Assembly: GCF_022669055.1 (NCBI RefSeq)
Contig: NZ_JAJMLW010000002.1
Span: forward strand, 124,001 to 188,000
DNA: 64,000 nt
Direction of reading: 5' to 3'
From: Adlercreutzia faecimuris
GTDB lineage: Bacteria > Actinomycetota > Coriobacteriia > Coriobacteriales > Eggerthellaceae
Each line of letters starts with the position of its first letter. The first letter of the stretch is position 1. Shown piece after piece: positions 2 through 50,049 of the stretch. Position numbers and translations under genes: made by a program. The notes beneath the pieces were generated by a model. That model had not been told where the DNA came from. It saw only the letters and a program-made list of their open reading frames with translations, and did no database searches.

Positions 2-379
2 GCGGCCCCGCTTGCGGGCGAGCTCGGCGACAACGTCCTCTACGCGCTGCACTTCTACGCGGCCACCCACCAGCAGCCGCTGCGCGACCGCCTGGCCGCG
101 GCCGTGGCGGCGGGGCTGCCCGTGTTCGTGAGCGAGTTCGGCATCTGCGACGCGAGCGGCAGCGGCGCGGTGGACTACGCCTCGGCCGACGCGTGGGTGG
201 CGCTCATGGACGAGCTCGGCGTGAGCTACGTGTGCTGGAACCTGTCGAACAAGGACGAGTCCTCGGCGCTCTTCCTGCCCGGCTGCGAGAAGGAGAGCGG
301 CTTCACCGACGCCGACCTGTCCGCCGAGGGCCGCTGGCTGCGCGCGGTGCTCCGCGGCGAGGCCCCGCCCGCCGCCTAG
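2..379 (+). CDS. Glycoside hydrolase family 5 (cellulase-like), C-terminal part only
   Basis: The 5' end lies outside the window; the frame is open from base 2 to the TAG at 377-379, giving the last 125 residues. The segment carries the end of a GH5 (beta/alpha)8 barrel: a conserved HFYAATH stretch (strand 6-like, His and Tyr of the active site), then VFVSEFG, whose Glu matches the catalytic nucleophile of GH5, then the WNLSNKDES strand 8 with the conserved Trp. GH5 enzymes hydrolyse beta-1,4 glucans or mannans, usually outside the cell; no signal peptide can be judged here. The last 31 codons (from about 287) are duplicated downstream at 1220-1312, on the other side of the hicAB pair. Family assignment is good; substrate unknown. 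Confidence 0.85.
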   Translation, partial: AAPLAGELGDNVLYALHFYAATHQQPLRDRLAAAVAAGLPVFVSEFGICDASGSGAVDYASADAWVALMDELGVSYVCWNLSNKDESSALFLPGCEKESGFTDADLSAEGRWLRAVLRGEAPPAA

Positions 380-397
380 AGCGCCGCGGCTATCGCG
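287..397. repeat. Direct repeat copy 1 (3' end of the GH5 gene)
   Basis: A 111-bp stretch covering the last codons, stop codon and 18 bases beyond the GH5 gene. It recurs at 1220-1330 in the same orientation with six mismatches (105/111 identical) and an exact 65-base core at 315-379. The two copies are offset by exactly 933 bp and bracket hicB and hicA. Confidence 0.9.
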
Positions 398-705
398 GCG
401 GCGACGAACTGGTTGAGGGACTCCCGGCGCTCGGCGGCCGCGAGGGCCGCGCGCCGGTGCAGCTCCGGGTTCACGCGCACGTTGAAGGATCCCTTGAACG
501 GCTTCTCGGGCTCCTTCCCCTTCTCCGCGCAGAAGGAGAGGTAGTCGTCCACGGCCGCGTGGAAGCGCGCCTCGACGTCCGAGGCGCCCTCGGCCTCGAA
601 GAAGATGCCGTCCCGTATGCCCGCGACGGATCCGGTCAGGATCATCCGCTCTCCGTCGAACTCGACCGGGGCGGAATAGCCCTTGTAGCTCAGGACGTTA
701 CTCAT
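376..705 (-). CDS. hicB: HicB-family antitoxin
   Basis: This 109-residue protein is the likely antitoxin of a type II toxin-antitoxin pair: it should bind and silence the HicA RNase and repress the shared promoter. The N-terminal half (residues 1-70) has the HicB partial RNase H-like fold pattern (MSNVLSYKGYSAPVEFDGE, then DVEARFHAAVDDYLSFC). The C-terminal part (about 75-109, VRVNPELHRRAALAAAERR... SLNQFV) looks like a ribbon-helix-helix DNA-binding domain. Its ATG overlaps the end of hicA by 8 nt, so the two are translationally coupled, toxin gene first. The stop codon overlaps the end of the convergent GH5 gene by 4 nt. Confidence 0.85.
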   Translation of the reverse strand: MSNVLSYKGYSAPVEFDGERMILTGSVAGIRDGIFFEAEGASDVEARFHAAVDDYLSFCAEKGKEPEKPFKGSFNVRVNPELHRRAALAAAERRESLNQFVAAAIAAAL

Positions 706-961
706 CGTCGGCCTCCTCGCCGTAGAGGAACCGCGCCGCGTACCGGATGGCGCCGGCGCTCATCTCGTCGCCGGGATGCGGGCTGTGCATGATGAGCATG
801 CGCCCGTCCCGCGGGCGGTAGAACCGGACGCGGGAGCCCGAGGTGCGCCCCTTCTGGTCTATCTCGTAGCCGTAGTGGCCCATGACCCTCGCGAAGTCGC
901 TGAAGCGGAAGGCGCTCGGCTCAGACCTCAGCTTGGCCGCGAGCTTCTCGACGCGCGTCAT
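698..961 (-). CDS. hicA: HicA-family toxin (mRNA interferase)
   Basis: An 87-residue protein with the dsRBD-like HicA fold expected to cleave mRNA when free of HicB. The start at 961 is preceded by a GAGGAAG ribosome-binding site. The strand pattern SGSRVRFYRPRDG followed by MHSPHPGDEM fits HicA. The position of the usual catalytic His in the GSH motif is occupied by Arg (GSRV); many HicA relatives show GSRV, so loss of activity cannot be concluded, and the His residues of MHSPHP may serve. It lies first in a two-gene operon with hicB, between two copies of the GH5 gene end, which suggests arrival as a small cassette. Confidence 0.82.
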   Translation of the reverse strand: MTRVEKLAAKLRSEPSAFRFSDFARVMGHYGYEIDQKGRTSGSRVRFYRPRDGRMLIMHSPHPGDEMSAGAIRYAARFLYGEEADDE

Positions 962-973
962 CCCGGCTTCCTC

Positions 974-1002
974 ATGGTAACTGAAAAACAGTTGCAAATC
1001 AA
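974..1002 (-). promoter_or_regulatory. hicAB promoter with overlapping inverted repeat
   Basis: On the minus strand, TTGATT (1002-997) and TACCAT (979-974) are separated by 17 bp. The spacer contains the inverted repeat AACTG-5-CAGTT at 979-993, well placed to be the HicB/HicAB autoregulatory operator. The stretch is much richer in A+T than its surroundings. The gap 962-1426 otherwise holds the second GH5 repeat copy and no convincing gene. Confidence 0.55.
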
Positions 1003-1204
1003 AGGGGGAGACGCGCGAGGGCGCGTCCGGCATGACGGCGGGAGAGGGGGGTGCTTTGGGAGGTGGGTGGCGCGGGGCATGGCGGCTCCTCTGCGTGTCG
1101 CGGCTCTCATGGCAGAGGATCTTGCGGGGCGGCGAGCGGTGTCGCAGCCGGCGTTCCGGCCCCCGTACTGGCTCTAGGGGCATGATAACACAAAACAAGA
1201 ACAA

Positions 1205-1312
1205 ATGATCGATATTCTTGAGAAGAAAAGCGGCTTCAACGAGGCCAACCTGTCCGCCGAGGGCCGCTGGCTGCGCGCGGTGCTCCGCGGCGAGGCCCCG
1301 CCCGCCGCCTAG
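1205..1312 (+). pseudogene. Chimeric 35-codon remnant of the GH5 gene end
   Basis: An in-frame ATG at 1205 leads into the duplicated GH5 C-terminus: six codons of unrelated A+T-rich sequence (MIDILE) are joined to a copy of the last 29 GH5 codons, which keep the frame and the same stop. There is no clear ribosome-binding site and the product lacks any catalytic part, so this is most likely a by-product of the duplication, not a working gene. Confidence 0.5.
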
Positions 1313-1330
1313 GGCGCCGCGGCTATCGCG
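1220..1330. repeat. Direct repeat copy 2 (downstream of hicAB)
   Basis: Second copy of the 111-bp GH5 gene end (see 287-397). The A+T-rich sequence just left of it (about 1181-1220) and the hicAB pair both belong to the 822 bp lying between the copies, consistent with an inserted segment that restored the gene end. Confidence 0.9.
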
Positions 1331-1426
1331 CCCCCGGCCGCCGCGGAGGCTTACGATTCTGTGAGATAGGGGCGGCGGGGGCCGGGAGATGGTATCGTGG
1401 GCGCAGCCTGAGGGAAGGGGGCTGCC

Positions 1427-2806
1427 GTGGCCATGGGGGCCGTCCGACATACCGCGCGCGTCGTCGCCATCGTCGTCGCCTGCCTCCTGGTGACGGCGCT
1501 TCTGGCCGTGGAGGCGCGCTACGCGGACGCCGCCGGCGTGCGGCGCGGGGCCGCGTCGCACGCGCCGGCGGCCGCGTGGGCCACGGGCGCCGAGGGCCCC
1601 GCGACGGCCGCGACGGCGCCCTCCCGGCGCGTGGTGGCGGCCGAGTACCTCTCCGAGGCGGCCGCCCTGGCGTCCTGGGCGGGCCATCCCGCCGCCCGGG
1701 GCGGCGCCTCGGCGCGCCTGGCGTGGGACGACCGCTGGCTGCTGGCCGACTCCTTCTCCTACAACCACGACCTGGCCCGGGCCTGCGCGGTGCTCTCCGC
1801 CGTGTGCAACGCCGAGTCGTGCTGGTACAGCGGCGCGGCGGGCGGCCGGCCCTTCGCCGAGCGAACGCTCGCGTCGCTGGGGTTCACCGCCATCCGCACC
1901 GACTCCTACGCCTGGCGCAGCAGCCTCCTCGACGAGGTGGGCGCCTTCCTCACCGGGTCGCACGAGGGGGTCGCCTACACCTTCGCGTCCAAGATGGTCG
2001 ACGCGCCCGGGGAGGGGCCGGTCACCCTCGTGTTCGCGGGCGTGCGCGGCAGCTACGGCTTCGAGTGGCTCACCAACCTCAACCTGGGCGAGGGCCCCGA
2101 TCACGACGGCTACCGCGCGGCCAAGGCGGAGCTCGCCCGCGCGCTTTCCGCCTACGTCGCCGACCTGGGCGCCGACCCGGCCTCCACGCGCATCCTGGTG
2201 ACCGGCCACAGCCGCGGCGGGGCCGTGGCCAACCTGCTGGCCGCGGGGCTCGACGACCTGGCCGGGACGTCGCAGGTGCTCGCCCCGGCCTCGGGCGTGT
2301 TCGCCTACACCTTCGCCGCGCCGGCATCCACCCGCGCGGCGGGGAAGGGCTGCCACGGCAACATCTTCAACGTGGTGGGCGAGGGCGACCTGGTGCCGCG
2401 GCTGCCCCTGGCCAGCTGGGGCTACGGCCGCCACGGTGTGACGGTGACCATCCCGCGGGACGGCCGCGCGGCATCGGGCGGCGCGGCCGCCGCGGGAGCC
2501 GGCGACGCGCTCGGGCCGTCCGACGGCGCGCCCGCGGCCATGGCGGCCGCCTTCCGCGCCAACACCGGCGTGGGCTTCGACGCCGGCGGCGCCCGCCGCG
2601 CGGCCGACGCCCTCGACGCCTTCGAGGCCGAGGCGGCGGTCCTCACCGCCGACGACGGCACGCCGCCCGCCCCCGGCGAGCTCGCGTCCGCCCTGGGCGC
2701 CCTGGCCGCGCTCGACCCCGCGGCTGTCCTGGCCTCCCACTACCCCGACGCCTACATCGCCTGGCTCCAGTCCCTCGGCGAGGCCGACCTCGCCTTCGCC
2801 GCCTGA
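1427..2806 (+). CDS. Secreted or anchored class 3 lipase-like hydrolase
   Basis: A 459-residue protein with an N-terminal membrane segment (residues about 9-28, RVVAIVVACLLVTALLAV) that acts as signal peptide or anchor. An alpha/beta hydrolase of the lipase class 3 type follows: VTGHSRGGAVANLLAA contains the nucleophile elbow G-H-S-R-G (Ser262), with a plausible catalytic Asp321 in VVGEGDLVPRLP and His336 in YGRHG. It probably hydrolyses ester lipids outside the membrane. The start is GTG at 1427, chosen because AGGGG lies 6 nt upstream; an ATG two codons on is possible. An extended -10-like TGGTATCGT occurs at 1390-1398. Substrate unknown. Confidence 0.75.
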   Translation: MAMGAVRHTARVVAIVVACLLVTALLAVEARYADAAGVRRGAASHAPAAAWATGAEGPATAATAPSRRVVAAEYLSEAAALASWAGHPAARGGASARLAWDDRWLLADSFSYNHDLARACAVLSAVCNAESCWYSGAAGGRPFAERTLASLGFTAIRTDSYAWRSSLLDEVGAFLTGSHEGVAYTFASKMVDAPGEGPVTLVFAGVRGSYGFEWLTNLNLGEGPDHDGYRAAKAELARALSAYVADLGADPASTRILVTGHSRGGAVANLLAAGLDDLAGTSQVLAPASGVFAYTFAAPASTRAAGKGCHGNIFNVVGEGDLVPRLPLASWGYGRHGVTVTIPRDGRAASGGAAAAGAGDALGPSDGAPAAMAAAFRANTGVGFDAGGARRAADALDAFEAEAAVLTADDGTPPAPGELASALGALAALDPAAVLASHYPDAYIAWLQSLGEADLAFAA

Positions 2807-2893: not shown

Positions 2894-4789
2894 TTGAACC
2901 TGTCGAAGTCGCGCTACACGCGCGGGACGCAGTGCCCGAAGATGCTGTGGATGGAGGCGCACCGCCCCGAGCTGTACGACGCCTCGGTCATGAATCAGGC
3001 CGTGCTCGCCGCGGGCAACGAGGTGGGCGACCTGGCCATGGGCTACTACGGCGCCTTCGTGGAGGTCCCCTTCCTCGAGCACGGGTTCCCCGCGATGGCA
3101 AGGCTCACCGAGCGCCTGATCGCGGCGGCGCTCGTCGCCCGGGCCGACGGGGGAGAGCCGGTGGACTGGGACGCGTGGCCCCTCGACGAGGCGGCGGCGC
3201 GGCAGGCCGCGGCCGAGCTGGCCGCGCAGGCGGCGGGCGCCGCGGGCGGCGAGCGTGCCGCGACTGCCGCCGGCGCGGCTTCCGGCGAGCACGCCCCGGT
3301 CGCCGACCCCCTGGCCGCGGCGGCCGCCCTCGCGGGGCGCCCCGTCATCTGCGAGGCCACCTTCGCGCTCGGCGGCGACCTCTGCATGGCCGACATCCTG
3401 CTCGTCGAGGCCGACGGCGTGCGGATGGTGGAGGTGAAGTCGTCCACCCACGTCCGCGACGTGTACCTGCACGACATGGCCTTCCAGCGCTGGGTGATCG
3501 AGGGCTGCGGCTACCGCGTGAAGTCCACCGCGCTCATGCACGTGGACGGCTCCTACGTGCGCGAGGGCGCCCTCGACGTGCGGGGGCTGTTCGCCGTGGA
3601 GGACCGCACCGAGGAGGTGCGCGCGCTCGCGGCCGGCGTCGCGGGGCGCGCGGCGCTGCTCAAGGCGGTGGCCGACGCGCCCGACGAGCCCGCGCTCGTG
3701 GCGCCCGACCGCGGCGTGCTCCAGCCGCTGCGGTCGTGGGCCGACTTCTGGGACGGCGGGGAGGGCGCGCCCGCGGCGCCGGCCGCGAGCGCGCCGCCCG
3801 ATGCCCCCGCGCCGCTCGGCGGGGACGCGTCGCCCGAGGCCCCCGCGCTGCCGGCGGGCCGCCGGGCCGAGGTGCTCGCCTCCGTCCGCGCGCCGCGCGA
3901 CATCGGCCCCCACTGCACGAGCCCGTATCCCTGCGGCTTTCGGGCCTGGTGCTGGCGCGCGGTGCCGCGCCCCGGCGTGTTCGACCTGGCCGGATGGCAG
4001 GCCGCCCGGCGCTTCCGCCTCTACGACGCCGGCGTGGCCACCCTCGACGACGTGGCCGCCGACGCGGGCCTGCGCCTCTTGGCGCTGCCCGCCCGCCAGC
4101 TCGAGGCGTGGACGACGGGCGCCGAGGTGATCGCCGACGCCCCGGCGCTGCGCCGCTTCCTCGACGGGCTGTGGTACCCGCTCGCCTTCCTCGACTTCGA
4201 GACGTTCCAGCAGGCGGTGCCGCCCTTCGACGGCACGCGCCCCTACGAGCAGATTCCCTCGCAGTTCTCGCTGCATATATATGAGGGGCCGAAGTCCCCG
4301 CTCGTCCACCGCGAGTTCCTGGTCGAGGCCGGCGCCGACCCGCGCCGCGCCGTGGCCGAGGCGCTCGTGGCCGCCGTGCCCGCGGGCGCCTGCGTGCTCG
4401 CCTACAACATGAGCTTCGAGAAGGCGGTCATCCGCGACCTGGCCGCGGCCTTCCCCGACCTGGCGGACGCGCTCGGCGCCATCCGCGGCAACGTGCGCGA
4501 CCTCATGACGCCCTTCAGGTCCGGCGCCTGCTACGCGGCGGCCCAGGGCGGCTCGACGTCGATCAAGGCGGTGCTGCCGGCGCTGTTCCCGGACGACCCG
4601 GAGCTCGACTACCACGCGCTGCCGGGCGTGGCCAACGGCTCGGAGGCCATGGCCGCCTTCGCCGACCTGGTGGGCCTTCCGCCCGAGGAGGCGGCGGCCG
4701 TGCGCGCGGGGCTTCTGGCCTACTGCCGGCTGGACACGCTCGCCATGGTGCGCGTCTGGGAGCGCCTGCGCGAGCTGGCGGGGGAGTAG
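2894..4789 (+). CDS. DUF2779 protein: Cas4-like nuclease fused to a DnaQ-like exonuclease domain
   Basis: A 631-residue protein. Its N-terminal half looks like a PD-(D/E)XK nuclease with a Fe-S cluster, as in Cas4/AddB: Cys14, Asp167 in MADILL, Glu180-Val-Lys182, Gln198, then Cys341, Cys347 and Cys353. An Ala/Pro-rich linker (about 285-325) follows. The C-terminal DUF2779 part has RNase H-like/DEDD features: Asp434 and Glu436 in FLDFETF, Asn505 in YNMSFEK, and Asp614 in YCRLDTLAM. This suggests a nuclease acting on DNA or RNA ends, role unknown. TTG start chosen because GGAGAG lies 4 nt before. The domain reading is inferred from motifs; family membership (DUF2779) is fairly secure. Confidence 0.75.
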   Translation: MNLSKSRYTRGTQCPKMLWMEAHRPELYDASVMNQAVLAAGNEVGDLAMGYYGAFVEVPFLEHGFPAMARLTERLIAAALVARADGGEPVDWDAWPLDEAAARQAAAELAAQAAGAAGGERAATAAGAASGEHAPVADPLAAAAALAGRPVICEATFALGGDLCMADILLVEADGVRMVEVKSSTHVRDVYLHDMAFQRWVIEGCGYRVKSTALMHVDGSYVREGALDVRGLFAVEDRTEEVRALAAGVAGRAALLKAVADAPDEPALVAPDRGVLQPLRSWADFWDGGEGAPAAPAASAPPDAPAPLGGDASPEAPALPAGRRAEVLASVRAPRDIGPHCTSPYPCGFRAWCWRAVPRPGVFDLAGWQAARRFRLYDAGVATLDDVAADAGLRLLALPARQLEAWTTGAEVIADAPALRRFLDGLWYPLAFLDFETFQQAVPPFDGTRPYEQIPSQFSLHIYEGPKSPLVHREFLVEAGADPRRAVAEALVAAVPAGACVLAYNMSFEKAVIRDLAAAFPDLADALGAIRGNVRDLMTPFRSGACYAAAQGGSTSIKAVLPALFPDDPELDYHALPGVANGSEAMAAFADLVGLPPEEAAAVRAGLLAYCRLDTLAMVRVWERLRELAGE

Positions 4790-6915: not shown

Positions 6916-9099
6916 ATGGAGCGGGAAGAGGAGAGGGACGTGGCGCCGGCCGCCCGCGGGGGCGCGATGGGCGGCGGAGGCGGGCTCGCCGGCGGGAGCG
7001 ACCCGCGCCCGTGCGCGGGCGGCCCGGCCGCCGCCGAGGACGCCGTGGCCGAGGAGGAGCGGCGCCTGGCCGCCGTGACGGCCCAGCTGCGCGCGGCCCT
7101 GGCGCGGGCCGAGGGGCTCGCGGGCCGGGTGGGCGCCTCCTGGGCCGAGGCGTCCGCCGACCTCATGGCGTCGCGCGGCGAGCTCGCCCCCGAGGAGGCC
7201 GTCCACGGCAGCCTCGAGCTCGACCGCATGGGGCGCCAGGCGGCGCTCGCCGAGCAGTCGGCCGAGCGCATCGCCCGGCTCCTCGAGTCCCCCTACTTCG
7301 CCCGGGTCGACTTCGCCGCCGACGACGCCCCAGACGGCCCGCCCCTGGTCGCGTCCGTGGGCCGCTTCGCCTTCTCCTGGGAGGGCCGCCCCGTCATCTC
7401 GGACTGGCGCAGCCCGGTGGCCGGCCTGTTCTACGACTACGAGCCGGGGCCGGCGGCCTACGAGGCCCCCGCCGGGCGCCGGGAGGGCGTCCTTGTGCGC
7501 AAGCGCCAGGTCAAGGTGGAGGAGGGCCGCGTCGCCTGGGCCGTCGACACCGCCTCGAGCGTGCGCGACGAGGTGCTTGCCCGCGCGCTCGCCCAGGGCG
7601 GCGGCACGCGCATGCACGACATCGTGGCCTCCATCCAGCGCGAGCAGAACGCCGTCATCCGCGACGAGCGCCCGGGCACCCTCGTCATCCAGGGCGTGGC
7701 CGGCTCGGGCAAGACCTCCGTGGCGCTCCACCGCGTGGCCTACCTGCTCTACCGGCAGAAGGACCGCCTGAGCTCGCGATCGGTCGCCATCGTGTCCCCG
7801 AGCCGCGTGTTCGCCGACTACATCTCGGGCGTGCTGCCCGAGCTCGGCGAGGAGCCGGTGGCCCAGTGGAGCCTCCACGGCCTGGCCGAGCTCGCGCTCG
7901 GGGGCGTCGCGCGCGTCGAGCGGCCCCGCTCCTGGGCTGACGAGGCCGACCCAGCCCGCGCCGCGCGCGCCGCGGCGAAGGGGACCCAGGCCTTCGCCGA
8001 CGGCCTCGTCGCCTGGCTCGCCGCCGTCACGGCGCCCGACGCGGCCGAGCCGCTGCTCGTCCCGCGCGACTTCGACCTGGGTTCCGCGACGGTGCCGGCG
8101 GCCTGGCTCGCCGAGCGCTTCGCCTCCCTCGGCGCCATCCCCGTGGCCGAGCGGCTCGGCATCCTGGCCGGCGACGCCCTCGCCCAGGCGTCCGCGGCCA
8201 GCTTCGGCCGGGCAGCCGCGGCCCTGCCCACCCGCCGCGAGGTGCGCGCCCGGCTGCTGCGGATGCTGCGCGCCCGGGACGCGCGGGCCCTCTACCGGCG
8301 CTTCCTGGCCGACACGGGCCGCAGCGCGCTTCTCCACGAGCCGGCGCGCGGCACGGTGGAGTGGGAGGACGCCTTCCCGCTTCTGCTCTGCCGCCTGGCG
8401 CTGGAGGGGCCGCCCCGCGCGCCGGAGCTCGCCGCCGTGCGCCATCTGGTCGTCGACGAGATGCAGGACCTCACGCCGGTGCAGCACGCCGCCCTGGCGC
8501 GGCTCCTTCCCTGCGACAAGACGCTTCTGGGCGACGTCAGCCAGGTCGTGGACGGGCGCGCGCCCGTGGCGCCCGAGGCCGTGGCCGCCGCCTACCCGGG
8601 CGCGCGGACGGTGCGGCTCACGCGCAGCTACCGGTCGACCTTCGAGATCGCCCAGCTGGCCGCGCGGGTGCGCCCTGACGCGGGGCTCGAGCCGGCCCCG
8701 CGCCACGGCGAGCCGCCGCGCCTCATCCGCTGCGGCGACACGCGCGGGGCCGTGGACGCCGTCGGGCGCGCCGTGGGGGCGTGGCGGGCGGCGGGCGGGC
8801 GCACCCTGGGCGTCGTGTGCAAGTCGGATCTGCTGGCCGCGCGCTACGCCGCGGTGCTGGCCGCGGAGCACCCGGTGACGCTCGTCACCGACGAGACCGA
8901 CGCCTTCCCGGCCGGCATCGCCGTGTGCCCGGTGCGGCTGGCCAAGGGCCTCGAGTTCGACGACGTGGTGATCCTGGACGCCGACGCGCGCCTCTACGCG
9001 ACCGAGGCCGACCGCGGCCTGCTCTACGTCGCCGTCACCCGCGCGATGCACCGGCTCACCGTCCTCTACCGCGACGAGCCCTCGCCGTTTCTGGCTTGA
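6916..9099 (+). CDS. helD: HelD-like superfamily 1 helicase (RNA polymerase recycling factor type)
   Basis: A 727-residue UvrD/Rep-like ATPase. After a Gly/Ala-rich start and a helical N-terminal region (about 40-125), the HelD-typical segment DWRSPVAGLFYDYEPGPAAY appears, then Walker A GVAGSGKTS (about 260-268), a DEMQD motif II in the second half, and a C-terminal motif VAVTRAMHRL. In known family members HelD binds RNA polymerase and frees it from nucleic acid. The start at 6916 has AAGGAGG 7 nt before it. The C-terminal half fits the family well; the N-terminal RNAP-channel arm is not obvious, so a related SF1 helicase remains possible. Confidence 0.78.
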   Translation: MEREEERDVAPAARGGAMGGGGGLAGGSDPRPCAGGPAAAEDAVAEEERRLAAVTAQLRAALARAEGLAGRVGASWAEASADLMASRGELAPEEAVHGSLELDRMGRQAALAEQSAERIARLLESPYFARVDFAADDAPDGPPLVASVGRFAFSWEGRPVISDWRSPVAGLFYDYEPGPAAYEAPAGRREGVLVRKRQVKVEEGRVAWAVDTASSVRDEVLARALAQGGGTRMHDIVASIQREQNAVIRDERPGTLVIQGVAGSGKTSVALHRVAYLLYRQKDRLSSRSVAIVSPSRVFADYISGVLPELGEEPVAQWSLHGLAELALGGVARVERPRSWADEADPARAARAAAKGTQAFADGLVAWLAAVTAPDAAEPLLVPRDFDLGSATVPAAWLAERFASLGAIPVAERLGILAGDALAQASAASFGRAAAALPTRREVRARLLRMLRARDARALYRRFLADTGRSALLHEPARGTVEWEDAFPLLLCRLALEGPPRAPELAAVRHLVVDEMQDLTPVQHAALARLLPCDKTLLGDVSQVVDGRAPVAPEAVAAAYPGARTVRLTRSYRSTFEIAQLAARVRPDAGLEPAPRHGEPPRLIRCGDTRGAVDAVGRAVGAWRAAGGRTLGVVCKSDLLAARYAAVLAAEHPVTLVTDETDAFPAGIAVCPVRLAKGLEFDDVVILDADARLYATEADRGLLYVAVTRAMHRLTVLYRDEPSPFLA

Positions 9100-49176: not shown

Positions 49177-50049
49177 CTAGCGGTGGTCGGCGAGGAAGAA
49201 CAGGGCCATGGTGCCGGGGCCGGAGTGCGCGCCGATGACCGGGTCGACGTAGTTGATGACCACGTCGCGCACGCCGAAGCGCTCCCGCACCATGGCGGCC
49301 ACGTACTCGGCGTCCTCCCGGCAGTCGCCGTGGGTGATGAACACCGTCTGCTCGGAGACGGGCTGGATGGCCGTGGCCTCCATGTGGTCGACGAGCGCCT
49401 TGAGTGACTTCTTGCGGCCGCGCACCTTCTCGAGCGGGATGAGGTGTCCCTCGTCGTCGACGTGCATGACCGGCTTGATGTTGAGCAGCGTCCCGGCCCA
49501 GGCGCTCGTCTTGGACACGCGCCCGCCGCGGAACAGGAACATGAGGTCGTCCACCGTGAACCAGTGGGCCAGGTTGAGCTTGTGGTCCTCGAGCCAGCGG
49601 TGCACCTCCTCGATGGGGGCGCCGTCGCGGGCCATGCGCGCCGCGTACCACACCAGAAGGCCCTCGCCGCCCGAGGCGGCCAGGGTGTCGACGGTCAGCA
49701 CCGTGCGCTCCGGGAACTCCTGGGCGAGCTGGCCCAGCAGCAGGTCGATCTCCTGGTAGGTGCCCGACAGCCCGCTCGAGAAGCCGATGTAGAGGATGTC
49801 GCGCCCGTCGGCGAGCAGCCCGCGCAGCAGGGCCTCGGAGTCGGCCATGCTCGGCAGCGACGTGGTGAAGACCTTCCCCTCGCGCATCATGGCGTAGAAC
49901 TGGGACAGGTCGGTGTGCTCGCCCTTCAGGTAGCTGTGGTACTGCTCGCCGTCGGCCATGAACGACAGGGGGAGTATGTGCAGGCCGAACTCGTCGATCA
50001 TGTCCTCGACGAGGTTCGAGCTGGAGTCGGTGACGATCTCGAATGCCAT
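49177..50049 (-). CDS. DegV-family fatty-acid-binding protein
   Basis: A 290-residue protein: IVTDSSSNLVEDMIDEFGLHILPLSF at the start, FTTSLPSMADSEALLRG, ILYIGFSSGLSGTYQ, and VVINYVDPVIGAHSGPGTMALFF at the end. DegV/FakB proteins hold a fatty acid for phosphorylation by FakA in host-lipid use; no fakA is in the window. ATG at 50049 with AGAGGAG upstream and TAGAAT at 50127-50122 as -10. Confidence 0.95.
   Translation of the reverse strand: MAFEIVTDSSSNLVEDMIDEFGLHILPLSFMADGEQYHSYLKGEHTDLSQFYAMMREGKVFTTSLPSMADSEALLRGLLADGRDILYIGFSSGLSGTYQEIDLLLGQLAQEFPERTVLTVDTLAASGGEGLLVWYAARMARDGAPIEEVHRWLEDHKLNLAHWFTVDDLMFLFRGGRVSKTSAWAGTLLNIKPVMHVDDEGHLIPLEKVRGRKKSLKALVDHMEATAIQPVSEQTVFITHGDCREDAEYVAAMVRERFGVRDVVINYVDPVIGAHSGPGTMALFFLADHR

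Follow-up and report, generated by a model that had tools for sequence, protein, structure and literature searches.

RESULTS

A hicBA operon enclosed by two copies of a cellulase gene end

At the beginning of the window (the whole 64-kb stretch of DNA that was analysed), a GH5 cellulase gene, represented by its 3′ part, runs towards a toxin–antitoxin gene pair, hicB and hicA, beyond which lies a class 3 lipase-like gene (Table 1). The HicA- and HicB-domain genes overlap on one strand and form a single operon; by their domains the two are a HicAB toxin–antitoxin system, with toxicity and neutralisation as the predicted activities. hicAB owes its name to the hif (pilus) region in Haemophilus influenzae. 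As in HicAB type II systems generally, the toxin gene comes first and hicB second, with a palindrome 5′ of hicA that is the probable HicB operator; at the level of the family there is nothing unusual about the pair. Characterised HicA toxins carry a GSH motif; in the window, and in all of the relatives that we read, it is GSR. A search of the PDB with HicA returned no HicA relative, PADLOC gave no match to defence families at the locus, and searches of plasmids and phages found distant hicB only.

Table 1. Features at the start of the window, listed by position
Feature	Position	Strand	Remarks
GH5 cellulase gene, 3′ part	2..379	+	Pfam Cellulase; gene start lies upstream of the window
Repeat copy 1	287..397		Last 93 bp of GH5 including its stop TAG (377–379) and the terminal 22 bp of hicB (376–397), CTAG being common to both
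hicB antitoxin, 109 aa, intact	376..705	-	Pfam HicB PF05534, E 1.2e-23; C-terminus AIAAAL
hicA toxin, 87 aa, intact	698..961	-	Pfam HicA_toxin PF07927, E 2.1e-8; overlaps hicB by a few bases
Inverted repeat GTAACTG-AAAAA-CAGTTGC, candidate HicB operator	977..995		Similar palindrome 5′ of hicA in relatives
Degenerate leader RNA copy, read towards hicA	1110..1176	-	Covariance model 35 bits, E 1.6e-7
A+T-rich promoter side of the leader	1177..1219	-	TTATCAT, -10-like
Repeat copy 2	1220..1330		GH5 tail fragment, stop at 1310–1312, 18 nt of the hicB end (1313–1330)
Ancestral intergenic flank, CTTACGATTCTGTGAGA	1348..1366		Common to congener G001, 5′ of its lipase gene
Class 3 lipase-like gene	1427..2806	+	Pfam Lipase_3; directly follows GH5 in G001

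The operon is bounded on both sides by a direct repeat of 111 bp, the copies of which are 95% identical, contain the GH5 stop codon, share an exact stretch of 65 bp between substitutions and are spaced by 933 bp; in all of these respects our repeat search agrees with the preliminary description of the locus. Apart from an identical tRNA pair and a local repeat rich in G+C, the window has no further direct repeats of at least 50 bp within 5 kb. The 933-bp unit thus delimited was also described as 0.9 kb long and lacking a recombinase, and this too is borne out: by open reading frames and Pfam, it contains intact hicB and hicA only, with no recombinase or integrase gene, and its neighbours are the GH5 and lipase genes. 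Two details are new, namely that the repeat takes in 22 bp from the 3′ end of hicB and that the unit holds a structured leader on the minus strand.

The repeat spans the junction between GH5 and hicB

The convergent GH5 and hicB genes overlap at their stop codons, within the palindrome CTAG. In copy 2, what comes after the GH5 stop is once more the 3′ end of hicB, in the same register, with 17 of 18 nucleotides identical and coding for AIAAAP*; for a fixed register, the probability of such a match by chance is about 2e-8. Since hicB proteins of other genera have identical or similar final residues (AIAAAL, AIAAAV), the conservation of this C-terminus indicates that the 3′ tract of the repeat is hicB-derived. 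Copy 2, which is presumably non-functional, runs 18 nt into hicB past the GH5 stop and then ends, as a remnant of a tandem duplication would; the hicB end being in register, copy 2 derives from a pre-formed GH5–hicB junction and, as the duplicated tract spans that junction, is something other than the original GH5 end merely pushed aside.

The copies differ by six substitutions. Five fall within the 28 nt at the 5′ end, and the remaining 83 nt have a single one (Fisher p = 0.004 for this clustering). At the five variant sites of the 5′ part, copy 2 matches the congener G001 at three, and G094 likewise at three; with variants held in common with these genomes, copy 2 is more than a decayed copy 1, and recombination between alleles or partial homogenisation would fit the observed divergence better than simple decay.

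Two other origins for this tract were considered and rejected: a terminator hairpin as the source of the sequence common behind both stops, which folds no better than shuffles, and an integron gene cassette, the attC core heptamers (GTTRRRY / RYYYAAC) being absent from 287–397 on reading the sequence. The GH5–hicB junction has no match in viral contigs.

The cellulase gene is shorter than in congeners, which lack hicBA

The complete GH5 frame (L021, 3198–4379) encodes 393 amino acids and no CBM2 domain, as against 578–656 aa in the three closest relatives having GH5; those of the two congeners with the gene, G001 and G003, measure 588 and 656 aa. Pfam recognises CBM2 in the G001 protein, and by reading, the C-terminal regions of G003 and of G094 (the next closest GH5 after the congeners) are of the same kind. 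Alignments of the closest relatives to the GH5 of the window end at its residues 385–391. Judged from these comparisons, GH5 at this locus is cut short, its CBM2-coding end absent and its stop shared with hicB. A GH5 without CBM2 is also found in the more distant genomes G112 and G038, so that loss of the domain could predate the insertion of hicBA; against this, the relatives nearest to the window have the C-terminal extension.

Within our comparison set of one genome per species, the congeners G001, G002 and G003 (the latter two being incomplete genomes) are without hicBA. Immediately behind GH5-CBM2, G001 has the flank and lipase gene that follow the unit in the window, and both G001 and G003 have a single GH5 end, that end bearing the CBM2 region. 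The comparison supports the view that hicBA at the GH5–lipase locus is an insertion and, given its absence from congeners, a recent one; the inserted DNA extends from the operon’s promoter side as far as the stop codon of hicB and is thus operon-sized. The preliminary description had likened the unit to an element that enters a gene end and restores it; the entry holds, whereas the restoration is contradicted by the missing CBM2 region, the stop common to hicB and a repeat that spans the junction of the two genes.

A structured leader RNA precedes hicA

The A+T-rich interior near copy 2, noted previously, is present (about 1181–1235) but represents the promoter side of the operon’s leader rather than the end of an element. 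Within it, GAACAAATGATC at 1199–1210 is one mismatch from a LexA-type box, a similarity that is not significant alone. The leader copy in the window has lost the third of the helices that typify its family, a structured RNA of about 95 nt with three helices, for which 20 distinct copies were compared: 94.4% of cells are paired and 11 of 18 pairs have both-side changes, with none of 500 shuffles as high. No Rfam family matches it. From this alignment, the leader is an RNA family, as yet without a name and outside Rfam, whose helices covary strongly. Matches occur in 29 of the 249 genomes searched, all but one of the 29 belonging to the window’s own bacterial family, with up to nine copies per genome; most copies have a LexA-type GAAC-N4-GTTC box and TATACT upstream. 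A second match to the leader model in the window (49589–49670), without promoter features, was dropped.

The genes found behind leader copies are hicA, Bro-N/dinD, KilA-N, DUF4160, PDDEXK_2, YhcG and a gene for a protein of ~270 aa of no assigned family. Besides that in the window, copies are located in L026 (one around 1677–1757 and a second), in L033–L050, in L062 and at G000:C4:267777–267869.

Repeat-bounded toxin–antitoxin operons recur

In a small survey, prompted by the case in the window and yielding exploratory numbers, flanking direct repeats were found at 8 of 79 hicB loci of other species and, for placements made at random within those loci, at 6 of 618. Under strict criteria (at least 40 bp and at least 80% identity), 8 of 114 non-redundant hicBA loci are repeat-bounded against 2 of 645 control placements (p = 7e-6), with the qualification that L141, counted among the eight, is a locus rich in repeats and the source of both control matches too; leaving out the window, the count is 7 of 113 (p about 4e-5). 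In a scan of the phylum for which the window and G006 served as positive controls, 3 of 30 hicB loci (both controls included) and 1 of 28 brnT loci (L256, a 113-bp gene end) were repeat-bounded; acetyltransferase loci gave 0 of 27. An integrase family sought in genomes with repeat-bounded hicBA was also matched in 14 of 14 control genomes.

The duplicated part at repeat-bounded hicBA loci is often the 3′ end of a gene or tRNA. In G142 (L079) a 45-bp tRNA 3′ part stands on both sides of hicAB, 1078 bp apart. Three loci of other species stand out as clear cases: L175 (Nitrosomonadales) has a duplicated tRNA-Met 3′ part, L181 (Gallionella) has hicAB between two 85% identical copies, 112 bp in length, of a regulator-like gene end, and the repeat at L137 (Clostridiales) comprises 57 bp that begin at a stop codon. 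L175 and L181 have 642 bp in common at 89% identity, with the operator region and the hicB stop codon as its limits and with unrelated flanks; as a parallel case, this supports operon-sized insertion. At L256 and L327 it is brnTA that lies between two about 80% identical 3′ ends, here of a membrane-protein gene (in L256, reverse complement 1280–1392 and 2051–2163); G211 and G212 have two such ends each, and their relative G213 has one, with no brnTA behind it. The arrangement sought elsewhere recurs in unrelated bacteria as hicBA flanked by duplicates of the 3′ end of a gene or tRNA. A second GH5-end unit was found neither in the genome nor in relatives.

In G006, hicBA is placed between two leader copies, 150 nt at 93% identity extending to 214 nt at 88% (L026, 1608–1757 and 2530–2679). 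We rejected this as a second identical case because the repeat there consists of the leader element and the start of dinD; the arrangement is thus related to that of the window but different. The leader copy on the hicA side in G006 retains an ATGGAG start and ribosome-binding site of the dinD type, as though derived from the dinD on the other side, and in G105 dinD lies directly 5′ of hicA; leader, dinD and hicBA thus seem to have been shuffled.

Two further loci are set down here as observations. In L229 (G688), two modules that by eye are of toxin–antitoxin-like families are parted by repeated putative hsdS 3′ ends at a contig end; in L078 (G019), two apparently damaged hicB copies (3711–4038 and 7285–7488) lie 3.4 kb apart within repeated segments.

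DISCUSSION

The locus presents directly a repeat, a junction shared by two genes, a GH5 shorter than those of congeners, congeners lacking hicBA and intact operon genes. The order of events, the type of recombination, excision and addiction we infer. Our preferred reading, which we put only a little above an even chance, is that the unit is an operon-sized islet that arose by illegitimate recombination and the duplication of one junction, and that can be removed by homologous recombination. The leader-hicA-hicB operon (about 835 bp from promoter side to hicB stop) would have entered the GH5–lipase intergenic region by illegitimate (non-homologous) recombination, replacing the CBM2-coding end of GH5 and leaving its frame to stop at the CTAG held in common with hicB. 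The 111-bp junction tract would then have been copied across the operon, either by a tandem duplication of the unit, the second copy of which was then largely lost, or by a single template switch, the outcome being a toxin–antitoxin islet with direct repeats at its two ends. Recombination of the RecA type between these could delete the 933-bp unit or free it as a circle, the C-terminus of GH5 unchanged, and the toxin–antitoxin pair would select against loss of the unit. A nearly identical 3′ part beside a diverged 28-nt 5′ part is expected after recombination between copies or alleles. Saying this, the two-step route has a weak point, in that it requires a large second deletion that has left no other trace; nor, among the genomes compared, one per species, was its intermediate seen, a GH5–hicB junction lacking copy 2.

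The main rival is homology-driven re-integration of a circle, in which one copy of the GH5-tail/hicB-end tract together with hicBA would have entered an excision-scarred GH5 end by a single homologous crossover of the Campbell type, the circle being the 933-bp unit as excised in a related strain and the islet cycling between strains by homology alone. The mosaic divergence of the copies with its sharp boundary, and the variants that copy 2 shares with the GH5 of other lineages, suit this account; the present locus, once the unit had been excised, would be precisely the recipient required, and repeat-bounded hicBA units of like size recur. It nevertheless demands an earlier hicBA insertion at the same site, and the two copies hardly differ in their 83-nt 3′ part, where a foreign donor should differ also; with one genome per species compared, neither a circle nor a route of transfer nor a scarred strain came to light. 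We hold it to be rather unlikely.

Homology-facilitated illegitimate recombination has been documented in bacteria capable of transformation. A further rival is homology-facilitated insertion with a long target duplication, in which one-sided homology at a gene 3′ end would import a donor end together with a toxin–antitoxin pair and leave the host end behind. The brnTA of L256 between 80% identical ends of one gene (with G213 having a single end and no brnTA), the hicAB of L181 between 85% identical regulator-like gene ends, and the duplicated tRNA 3′ parts of L175 and G142 all agree well with such a process. Restriction–modification (RM) systems, for which such insertion has been proposed, provide the precedent: PMC3874152 (citing Nobusato et al. 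2000 and Furuta et al. 2010) reports that they insert with target duplications that are long, vary in length and measure around 100 bp, and this kind of insertion is cited in PMC1643837 and PMC3031569 as well. Like these, the window has a small addiction-type module, lacking a recombinase, between long direct repeats of that size, with close relatives that are without the module; unlike them, the module is hicBA and the repeat takes in part of the inserted antitoxin gene. It is because the repeat contains hicB (its last 22 bp) that a strict target duplication does not describe it: the duplicated tract is more than target alone, and we disfavour this explanation, which we consider less probable than the re-integration of a circle.

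Integrative elements insert into the 3′ ends of genes or tRNAs and bring a replacement end, and tRNA 3′ parts are the usual attachment sites of tyrosine recombinases. The preliminary description likened the unit to such elements; the corresponding reaction here, site-specific integration into the GH5 end with restoration of the gene, would call for a tyrosine recombinase acting in trans. A direct repeat holding a gene end and stop codon resembles the product of such an element, and the repeats around hicAB in L175 and G142 are tRNA 3′ parts; at 0.9 kb, however, the unit has a recombinase neither inside nor beside it, the host gene is shortened instead of being brought to full length, the repeat reaches into the coding sequence of the cargo gene hicB, and neither the genome nor the relatives compared have a second GH5-end unit. 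At this locus, site-specific integration is unlikely, and to our minds very much so, although the tRNA-located cases elsewhere keep it possible for the class. An assembly artefact or chance we discount almost wholly, since nothing specific favours it beyond a draft assembly of 6 contigs, whereas the copies show six differences, usual reads are longer than the repeat, the contig extends over 618 kb and a 111-bp match at 95% is not credible as coincidence.

A further counterpart in the literature concerns Microcystis aeruginosa, in which a ParDE-like pair lies between two identical 152-bp direct repeats beside an orthocaspase gene (PMC7935541). Both are chromosomal type II toxin–antitoxin pairs between direct repeats just past a gene end; the Microcystis repeats are identical, intergenic and furnished with a 16-bp inverted repeat, whereas those in the window are 95% alike and consist of coding sequence of two genes.

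For the movement of chromosomal toxin–antitoxin systems in the absence of a transposase or integrase, the excess of repeat-bounded hicBA (8/114 against 2/645) suggests a testable route, namely recombination between duplicated ends. We would extend this, tentatively and with considerable doubt, to the idea that hicBA and brnTA spread as recombinase-less, operon-sized islets at gene and tRNA 3′ ends, duplicating about 45–215 bp and being excised and re-integrated by homologous recombination alone; were that general route true, the window would be one case of it, with a junction-spanning repeat. The locus also suggests that a hicBA unit may remodel its neighbour gene, here by removing the cellulose-binding domain from a cellulase.
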